From assembly GCF_904846685.1 (NCBI RefSeq), contig NZ_CAJHBQ010000002.1, positions 248,001-312,000 of the forward strand: 64,000 nt of DNA. Reading direction: 5' to 3'. The position numbers and the translations under genes were made by a program. The notes beneath the pieces are model-generated. The model was given only the letters and a program-made list of their open reading frames with translations. It ran no database searches and was not told where the DNA came from. The stretch is from Psychrobacter submarinus (GTDB taxonomy: Bacteria; Pseudomonadota; Gammaproteobacteria; Pseudomonadales; Moraxellaceae). Below are positions 52,271 through 53,887 of the stretch, piece after piece; position 1 is the stretch's first letter; the number at the start of each line of letters is the position of its first letter.

Positions 52271-52549
52271 ATGAAGCCACTTTATCTGATGCTATCGATG
52301 TTTGCTATCGGTCTCACTTCTACCGCCGCATTAGCTGAAGCTACAAGTATTCCTGATGCTGCAAGCCTACCTAATGTCAGCCCTGCCAACAGCGATCTAG
52401 TCAACCGCGGTGCGTATATTGCCCGCGCTGCTGATTGTATGGCCTGCCACGGCGATGACTACGTCGGCGGTAACGCGATTGAAACACCGATGGGTGATAT
52501 TTATTCCACTAATATTACGCCCTCAAAACAGTATGGTATCGGTAAATTT
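52271..52549 (+). pseudogene. Truncated cytochrome c (alcohol-dehydrogenase cytochrome subunit type)
   Basis: The N-terminal part of a periplasmic c-type cytochrome: signal peptide (LYLMLSMFAIGLTSTAALAEA), then LVNRGAYIARAADCMACHG with the heme motif Cys56-x-x-Cys59-His60. GNAIETPMGDIYSTNITPS follows, the usual continuation in membrane alcohol/gluconate dehydrogenase cytochrome subunits. After GIGKF the frame runs into the IS3-family element and ends at 52594. The missing part is not found on the far side of the IS, which lies directly by tolB. A full-length member would have several hundred residues. Confidence 0.85.
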
Positions 52550-52594
52550 GACCCCTGCCGTCAATCCCGTATATATAAACTTGGGAGATTTTAG

Positions 52595-53464
52595 TTACGC
52601 AGCCTGACGATAATAATCAAACCACACCTGTCTTGGTGATTTATAACCCAAACCCTTTTGAATCCTCGTCTGATTGTAGTACAGCTCGATGTATCTAATA
52701 ATATCGTTGATCGCTGCAAATCTAGTCTTATAATCCTGATGATATACCAGCTCGTTCTTTAAAGTGCCCCAGAAGCTTTCTATTGGAGCGTTATCGAAAC
52801 AGTTGCCTTTGCCGCTCATTGAGCCTATAAATTGATGCTGCTTAATGGTCTTGTGGTAGGCGTGACTGCAATACTGACTGCCTCTGTCAGAGTGAACGAT
52901 TAGCTCTTTGCTGGGCCGTTTATTTTTAATTGCCATATTGAGTGCACGACATACTAAATCTGCGGTCATGCGTTTGTTGATGGCATAACCAACCAGCTCT
53001 TTGGTGTATAAGTCTTTGACTCCTGCTAAGTACAGCCAGCCTTCATGTGTCCAGATATAGGTGATGTCACTGACCCACGCCTGATTAGGACACTTGGCAT
53101 CAAACTGCTGATCCAGCACGTTATCATAGACCAGTTTGTTGTGATTAGAGTCAGTGGTGACTTTAAAGCGCTTATGACGACGACATTTAATGCCGTGTTC
53201 CTCTTTGATGCTTCTTACCATATATAGGCTAATGTCATGCCCTTGCTCGCTTAGATGAGCATGCAGTCGATCTACGCCATAACGTTCTTTCGTTTCATTG
53301 TGAGCGGCTTTAACCAGTAACTCGCACTGATTACGATGTATCTGCTGACAGCTGATATGACGACCTAGCCAGTCATAGTAGCTTGAGGGTTTAACCTGTA
53401 GTACGCGGCACATGCTACTAATGCTAAAGACTTGCTGATTGTCTTTAATAAAGGCGTACTTCAC
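52595..53464 (-). CDS. IS3-family transposase OrfB (DDE catalytic domain)
   Basis: The catalytic part of the transposase, 289 aa from a GTG start. The HTH_21 domain (FSISSMCRVLQVKPSSYYDWL) precedes the RNase-H-fold integrase core with the triad visible in WVSDITYIWT (Asp), VHSDRGSQYCS (Asp) and APIESFWGTLKNE (Glu). In IS3 elements OrfB is made as an OrfA-OrfB fusion by -1 frameshifting. Here the two frames are the same, but 148 bp with four in-frame stops lie between them, so a fusion is not made by the normal route. Confidence 0.9.
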   Translation of the reverse strand: MKYAFIKDNQQVFSISSMCRVLQVKPSSYYDWLGRHISCQQIHRNQCELLVKAAHNETKERYGVDRLHAHLSEQGHDISLYMVRSIKEEHGIKCRRHKRFKVTTDSNHNKLVYDNVLDQQFDAKCPNQAWVSDITYIWTHEGWLYLAGVKDLYTKELVGYAINKRMTADLVCRALNMAIKNKRPSKELIVHSDRGSQYCSHAYHKTIKQHQFIGSMSGKGNCFDNAPIESFWGTLKNELVYHQDYKTRFAAINDIIRYIELYYNQTRIQKGLGYKSPRQVWFDYYRQAA

Positions 53465-53470
53465 TAACTG

Positions 53471-53626
53471 TCACTTCGGGCATAGCCCTACGCCTTGCGT
53501 CACTAAAACAGTCTCCCAGACTGTTTCTTAACGTTCCTCATTGGCAAAGTACGCCGTCGCCTCATTCGAGCATAGCTCTCATCTTGCGTCGGGGCGAAGC
53601 AGTGCTTCGCTTTATCCCTCCTCATT
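53471..53626 (-). repeat. Two related stem-loop modules inside the IS3 transposase junction
   Basis: Module B (53471-53542) and module A (53560-53626) share the order: a small stem GRGC-ATA-GCYC, then CTTGCGTC, a larger hairpin, and CCTCATT. The small stem is GGGCATAGCCC in B and GAGCATAGCTC in A, so both sides of one base pair changed together. The larger hairpins differ in sequence (AAACAGTCT/AGACTGTTT at 53506-53526; GCGAAGC/GCTTCGC at 53594-53610). Between the modules 17 bp still encode TAYFA of the transposase. Removing 60 bp between two CCTCATT copies would restore an uninterrupted EILNEATAYFA reading. Confidence 0.75.
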
Positions 53627-53887
53627 TAAGATCTCGCGCTCCTCTTCAGCCACTTTAAGCTGCCGCTTGAGCTGCTTTATTTCCTGAAGAGCCGTCATAA
53701 GATCAGGATCGTATTGTTCAGTGCCCACAAGCTTGCCTTGATTGGCTTTATTCTGCCAGTTAGATAAGGTTTGCATGGCGATCCCGAGCTGCTTTGCAGT
53801 AGCTGAAATATTGCCATTATTATCCGCTATCTTTTTAACAGCTTCGGCTTTAAATTCTGTGCTGTAAGTTCTAACTTTCTTGGTCAT
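53612..53887 (-). CDS. IS3-family transposase OrfA (helix-turn-helix)
   Basis: The 91-aa DNA-binding subunit: TYSTEFKAEAVKKIADNNGN, then ISATAKQLGIAMQTLSNWQNKA (the helix-turn-helix), followed by a leucine-zipper-like helix LQEIKQLKRQLKVAEEEREIL. In active IS3 elements a slippery A-AAA-AAG usually lies near the following Lys-Lys; here the helix runs into NEEG and a stop created by stem-loop module A. Confidence 0.88.
   Translation of the reverse strand: MTKKVRTYSTEFKAEAVKKIADNNGNISATAKQLGIAMQTLSNWQNKANQGKLVGTEQYDPDLMTALQEIKQLKRQLKVAEEEREILNEEG

Follow-up and report, generated by a model that had tools for sequence, protein, structure and literature searches.

Integron attC sites are mobile DNA in which the fold is kept, the arms covary, and some bases stay unpaired; translational bypassing elements (byp) are short hairpin inserts that bring early stops into coding sequence. 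The Rickettsia palindromic elements are compatible with the host reading frame. They are described as palindromic parasites inside protein-coding genes (PMC2229807, PMC3733652), with lengths of 105-146 bp (PMC2229807). For REP sequences, PMC3733652 describes GTAG- and CGTC-tagged palindromes as one hairpin with an unpaired tag, the CGTC stems having 8-9 bp and loops of 4-5 nt, and the CGTC type has no known transposase. Within Moraxellaceae, MITEAba12 is described (PMC6382973) as a miniature element of 111-114 bp with terminal inverted repeats and 9-bp target duplications.

Here, two hairpin elements, A and B, were analyzed at the orfA-orfB junction of an IS3-family element from Psychrobacter submarinus, together with their relatives elsewhere. 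They resemble attC sites in their conserved fold, covarying arms, and unpaired bases, but show no AAC/GTT core boxes by eye. They share with byp elements the form of a short hairpin insert with early stops in coding sequence, but they also occur in noncoding and antisense places, and the frame is not preserved. Like the REP and CGTC sequences of PMC3733652, they are short palindromes with many stem variants, intergenic and sometimes intragenic. Unlike those sequences, they have a first stem that is broken by a 5-nt bulge and paired at its TG..CA base, and a second hairpin follows. Identity with CGTC REPs as characterized there was rejected, given the bulged two-part stem, the mostly 3-nt loop, and CGTC letters that vary between members. 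The likeness to Rickettsia elements (PMC2229807, PMC3733652) is that of palindromic parasites inside protein-coding genes; unlike those elements, A and B bring stops and A shifts the frame, and only some copies of a third member, C, are open and in frame. With MITEAba12 (PMC6382973), they share the nature of a small nonautonomous mobile element of Moraxellaceae, whereas their ends (TGAG..AGTGA) lack inverted repeats, there is no target duplication, and about 3 nt of target are replaced.

Two hairpin elements at the orfA-orfB junction

The window, the whole 64,000-nt stretch of DNA analyzed, carries an IS3-family element on the minus strand of 52595-53887, in which orfA has an HTH_Tnp_1 domain and orfB an rve/DDE core. 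Both an OrfA with HTH and an OrfB with DDE of IS3 type are present, placing the window copy in this family. The two modules reported in the initial annotation were both found at the junction. The features are listed below in coding order; R2 is one of two sequence models introduced further on.

53612..53887, minus strand: orfA of the IS3 element, HTH_Tnp_1, ending inside element B (91 aa, ..EILNEEG stop)
53562..53624, minus strand: element B, 63 nt, in the A6 run of the A AAA AAG site (net +60)
53582..53624, minus strand: stem I of element B (R2 match, 47.6 bits; position repeated in a second R2 search)
53568..53578, minus strand: stem II of element B, GAGC-TAT-GCTC
53541..53561, minus strand: IS remnant of 21 nt separating A from B, with the TAYFA codons
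53471..53540, minus strand: element A, 70 nt, after TAYFA, replacing 3 nt relative to empty copies (net +67)
53493..53540, minus strand: stem I of element A (R2 match, 38.8 bits; position repeated in a second R2 search)
53478..53488, minus strand: stem II of element A, GGGC-TAT-GCCC
52595..53464, minus strand: orfB, intact IS3-family transposase with rve/DDE, 289 aa (NF033516, 328.9 bits)

In coding orientation, both modules start with TGAG and have two hairpins, stem I, which is long and interrupted, and stem II, which is small; the letters GACGCAAG stand between the hairpins, and a tail follows the second one. The ends are TGAG...AGTGA in A and TGAG...AATGA in B. The small stems pair as GGGC/GCCC and GAGC/GCTC, exactly as first described. 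In the window, 2 instances of the spacing pattern CTTGCGTC..CCTCATT were found where 0.01 would be expected, and the pattern is not due to chance. Both modules were more stable than their shuffled versions (z of -2.3 and -2.8; 3/200 and 4/200 shuffles equally stable), as was a copy at locus L002 (z of -3.75); the copy at L016 (z of 0.60) and a 96-nt stretch of L020 (z of -0.65) were not distinct from shuffles. The suggestion that the CCTCATT copies are insertion duplications did not hold up, as every element begins with TGAGG. A second AATGAGG, next to B, is peculiar to the window variant, other B copies ending in GAGTTGG or GAGTGGG.

In empty copies of this IS, orfA reads on past ..KKATAYFA.. 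and meets a stop within a few more codons, while the window orfA stops within element B. The claim that orfA, the TAYFA codons, and orfB lie in one frame was confirmed, with the stops TAA, TGA, TAA, and TGA between them; the shared frame results from the 60 nt of B and the 67 nt of A that are gained over empty copies. In IS3 elements, A AAA AAG is the site of -1 frameshifting. The window copy lacks the arrangement of a -1-frame OrfB with this slippery site, which element B replaces; B interrupts the A6 run of the heptamer, and therefore the usual -1 frameshift should be lost. Together, the stops and the lost site should block an OrfAB fusion, and the effect of the two insertions in the window is a split, probably nonautonomous IS3 element. 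Frameshift or start-codon reuse was considered and rejected: the ATG in AATGAGG enters the orfB frame in B variants of net +59, but such reuse is not general because the window variant has no open frame from it into orfB. By eye, the IS3 element itself seems to interrupt a c-type cytochrome gene at 52271-52594, whose reading frame (MKPLYLML...CMACHGDDYVGG) stops shortly after entering the IS end.

Occupied and empty copies of insertion sequences

The window orfB was compared with relatives at 80 loci from named genomes, 79 of them Psychrobacter. An undisturbed junction (locus L073) reads ATC TTA AAA AAG GCG ACG GCG TAC TTT GCC AAG CAC AG, with orfA ending in ATAYFAKHS and orfB in the -1 frame. 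In aligned pairs of empty and occupied copies, from which the net lengths of B were also taken, the exact difference was +60 or +59 for B, +67 for A, and +60 for C, an element near the orfB end. D, the fourth member, is found in the DDE region on the opposite strand, just before the FDNAPIES motif. On these alignments, the simplest reading would be a TGAG...AGTGA element replacing 3 nt, namely GCA for A, AAA for B, and GCA or ACA for D. Site C fits such a replacement only with one extra substitution, and in a second IS3-type element, IS#2, the 3-nt rule is not simply met. When the 80 loci and the window were sorted by regular expression (81 rows, 7 of which had no readable junction and were excluded from the comparison), 21 carried B, 14 carried A (5 of these also B), 4 carried C, a count low by at least 1 since L119 was missed by the expression, and 44 were unoccupied with the A6 run present. 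The module-free copies thus reveal a precise insertion of each module with about 3 nt replaced, in line with the proposal that the modules look inserted. An in-frame peptide insertion of the Rickettsia kind was rejected as a general account: it is true of some C copies and of one D copy (L018, read open, in contrast to the stop in the D copy of L020), and it fails for A and B.

Elements of this kind were also found in other transposase genes. Two other IS3-family elements, L200 and L033, have a B-type element at the position of the slippery site; their OrfA parts scored 60.2 and 55.8 bits with NF033516 (80 residues given, below the whole-protein cut-off) and exceeded the HTH_Tnp_1 cut-off. In L200, both bases of the outer pair of the inner stem have changed and still pair; when plasmids were searched with L200, no complete module-free copy turned up. 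The orfA of IS#2 is occupied by an A-type element both in Psychrobacter (L249-L252) and on three plasmids of Moraxella, one copy being annotated 'IS3 family transposase'; IS#2 also has empty copies. The Moraxella inner stem is kept by paired changes, from AGTCT/AGACT to AGTCC/GGACT. In genome G131, eight fetched stretches with common flanks have an element before a CxxC motif; the two that were scanned are both TnpB (L330 with PF07282 and PF01385, L331 with PF01385). Two stretches, L331 and L324, hold a second element farther upstream, which in L331 lies at the first CxxC.

The early stops in A and B and the nearby hairpin raise the question of translational bypass or RNA removal, in which the module would be skipped or cut out and the transposase still made; T4 gene 60 and the mitochondrial byp elements are precedents for bypass. 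Two further observations are favorable to this reading. OrfB is intact in 17/21 B-bearing copies and in 29/44 empty ones, and in module-bearing IS#2, both OrfA halves and OrfB are under purifying selection, with pN/pS between five Psychrobacter copies and one Moraxella copy of 0.12 before the module, 0.10 (0.103) after it, and 0.16 in OrfB. Other data concern whether module-bearing copies stay alive. Overall, dN/dS of orfB is 0.072 among B-B pairs and 0.056 among empty pairs. One genome has B-bearing copies at two places, with 99.25% identity over 1336 bp, and Psychrobacter of different names share identical orfB genes that bear B. Among the occupied Psychrobacter copies of IS#2, pN/pS behind the module is 0.059. 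Such low values behind the module could reflect function in its presence, more than one insertion at the same site, or recombinational repair.

The net lengths speak against bypass, however, since they differ modulo 3 at one site (59 and 60 for B; +62 in three and +61 in four IS#2 copies, counted from codons just upstream), and the frame is therefore not preserved. L252, a module-bearing IS#2, has a further 2-nt length change in orfA upstream of the module, which is another sign that the frame is not maintained. Among closely related pairs, dN/dS was approximately 0.42 in 15 nonindependent B-B pairs, against 0.06 in the single close empty pair available. In the occupied Psychrobacter IS#2 copies, pS was 0.14 in the N-half and 0.39 in the C-half, a difference pointing to recombination with intact copies; together with OrfA/OrfB mosaics, it indicates that recombination occurs. 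On a tree of orfB (53 rows), the distribution of the elements needs 11 changes for B, 8 for A, and 2 for C, a patchiness that fits recombination, repeated insertion, or both. Members of the family are also present in antisense orientation and in places not expected to be translated, namely tRNA leaders and CRISPR repeats. We therefore regard the recoding reading as unlikely and give bypass or RNA removal a quite low probability.

A dispersed family in Moraxellaceae

The initial annotation had guessed at a dispersed mini-element, and other genomic copies were indeed found. A strict pattern matched in 58/105 Psychrobacter genomes, in part by chance, a reversed control pattern giving 3 matches. 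Among the loci read, the true matches fell into three types of hairpin and lay at fixed sites in transposase genes of the IS3 type; five matches (L013, L019, L022, L028, and L041) had no hairpins and were dropped. Models R1 and R2, built from the true matches, detected copies outside this IS, and a family-wide draw returned matches in 60/129 genomes and 7/16 genera (E up to 1e-4, strict filters). The plan is fixed across the family: TGAG, a bulged stem I made of an outer stem, a 5-nt bulge, an inner stem, and usually a triloop, then GCAAG and stem II, for an element of about 62-70 nt. No description of the family was found in the open-access literature searched, and it appears to be undescribed.

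In the window's own genome, R2 gave 22 matches at E up to 10 and 19 at E up to 0.02. These 19 copies are distributed over IS3-type elements (5), an IS256 transposase gene, which is interrupted (1), tRNA 5' ends in direct contact (6), a further tRNA-Lys leader (1), two arrays (5), and a gene end (1). The remaining matches, L193-L195 (E of 0.1 to 7), were dropped as chance, with no stem of the plan visible and L193 lying in an intact reading frame. Genome G032 had 43 R2 matches; several of its elements (L336, L337, L340, L342, and L347) are inserted in a larger intergenic repeat, GGAGCGGTTTAGCCCC..., which by eye is also present in the own genome near C4:188012-188187. At L053 and L338, the element is flanked by a sequence and its slightly diverged short duplicate. 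By eye, the flanking sequence at L053 is the 3' end of a permease-like gene, as if a piece of the gene end had been copied with the insertion.

The six tRNA contacts of the own genome are at tRNA-Ile, tRNA-Ala, two tRNA-Val, and two tRNA-Lys genes, five of them exact and the one at tRNA-Ile overlapping by 1 nt. Across 13 Psychrobacter genomes, including this one, 12/24 tRNA-Val 5' ends were occupied flush with nucleotide 1 and 12/24 were vacant, and the stems at the occupied ends differ between copies. Three genomes of another genus share a 48-nt stem, flush at their tRNA-Lys, that is identical to one flush at tRNA-Val in a Psychrobacter. Of 29 loci returned by the family-wide search, 12 abut a tRNA gene exactly and 1 more lies at 1 nt, a tRNA share biased by the choice of best-scoring loci, mostly one per genome. 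Comparison of L144 with L145 showed that stem I alone is clearly additional, and stem II at tRNA genes may, to judge from such alignments, be partly native leader sequence. In the 16S-23S spacer of an rRNA operon (L049, contig C1 of the own genome), elements lie at tRNA-Ile and flush at tRNA-Ala, where they could alter pre-rRNA or tRNA processing.

CRISPR repeats are interrupted in four Moraxellaceae genomes (L287, L288, L292, and L339). At L292, a run of six intact repeats (GTCGCACCCATCACGGGTGCGTGGATTGAAAC) precedes a seventh that has a complete element in place of ATT. The last full repeats of L287 and L288, preceded by 11 and 6 intact repeats, are interrupted after CTTA, and L339 has the same CTTA-site interruption in a fourth genome. 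In L287, L288, and L292, the element-bearing repeats are the last full ones, and reverse-oriented elements follow. From their letters, we take the repeats to be of I-C-like and I-F-like subtypes, and the direction of the arrays is likewise presumed.

This distribution bears on the idea that the module is a regulatory or silencing RNA device with which the host or the IS holds the transposase down. B does remove the frameshift heptamer and add stops, and several transposase families have genes with modules; since insertions in host genes would be purged, however, a concentration in IS genes is expected anyway. Such a purpose is needless for insertions in tRNA leaders and CRISPR repeats, and no Rfam family (release 15) matched above its gathering score on the elements at the window junction, L049, L050, L052, and L162. 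The initial proposal of a recoding or silencing device is not supported; as to recoding, the net lengths fail to preserve the frame, and we consider a silencing function improbable.

An origin as REP-type repeats moved by a resident RAYT was also weighed. The genome does contain one Y1 transposase match, and REPs are short palindromes with an unpaired tag. However, the RAYT gene (L173) is adjoined by a different GTAG palindrome, GTAGGCTGGGC..GCCCAGCCTAC, its locus has no TGAG..GCAAG hairpin among its inverted repeats, and the single TGAG..GCAAG string there is not a family stem by eye. This RAYT-like Y1 gene (C1:1299794-1300138) has GTAGGCTGGGC..GCCCAGCCTAC palindromes on both sides, which are REP-like and unrelated to the elements. 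As the sole Y1_Tnp match in the genome has its own GTAG repeats, a RAYT/REP origin was rejected as highly improbable. No mobilizing enzyme was found in this genome, Y1_Tnp being the one family sought.

Conservation of the fold and nature of the elements

Selection on folding, initially proposed from the two modules of the window, was borne out by covariation across a broad set of stems. In 22 diverse stems, outer-stem cells were paired in 82.5% of cases against 64.5% after shuffling, and covariation was 0.400 against 0.145, with 0/500 shuffles as high and slid versions reaching at most 0.122. Two measures that count pairs or pair types were weaker, 34/500 and 40/500 shuffles being as high. With 92 distinct sequences, in an alignment fitted to the model, the corresponding values were 88.1% against 69.4% and 0.398 against 0.125 (0/500 shuffles), the two weaker measures giving 139/500 and 12/500. 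For the inner stem, a run of at least 6 pairs was present in 83% of 90 distinct elements, compared with 13% of chimeras and 4% of shuffles (loop re-optimized). Quasi-palindrome repair could add to the covariation.

Collectively, these findings make it likely that the modules are two insertions of a short nonautonomous mobile element that is spread across Moraxellaceae and in which the fold is kept more than the sequence. Mobility is supported by near-identical IS copies in which a fixed site is precisely either occupied or empty, and by the B-bearing copies at two places of one genome. Under the refutation conditions set in the initial annotation, the mobile reading survives, since the modules vary in presence among relatives and further genomic copies were found. 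An enzyme of the host or of an element would recognize the fold, as single-stranded DNA or RNA, and insert it at precise sites, and IS elements would carry the mini-element to new places. Copies bearing A or B, probably unable to make the normal OrfAB fusion by -1 frameshifting, would likely depend on movement in trans, or on recombination with intact copies, for their spread. Against this explanation, the patchiness on the OrfB tree could stem from recombination of IS copies rather than repeated insertion, the element boundaries are not uniform (IS#2, site C, and tRNA stem II), and some copies (L016 and the L020 stretch) fold no better than their own shuffles.

A bolder proposal, which we put forward tentatively and hold to be doubtful, is that these elements form a new class of mobile element: a folded, structure-conserved unit inserted by an enzyme at the edges of structured targets (tRNA position 1, the side of a CRISPR-repeat hairpin, the IS3 frameshift site), with IS elements as vehicles. 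If true, the element would blunt IS transposases and old CRISPR repeats. More generally, few kinds of short mobile repeat are known in bacteria, and these elements would extend them by a hairpin that is family-wide and conserved in structure; its exact insertion points (tRNA nucleotide 1 and a fixed place in the CRISPR repeat) make the mechanism testable. The elements also account for the split IS genes of Psychrobacter without frameshift recoding and are an example of parasites of parasites.
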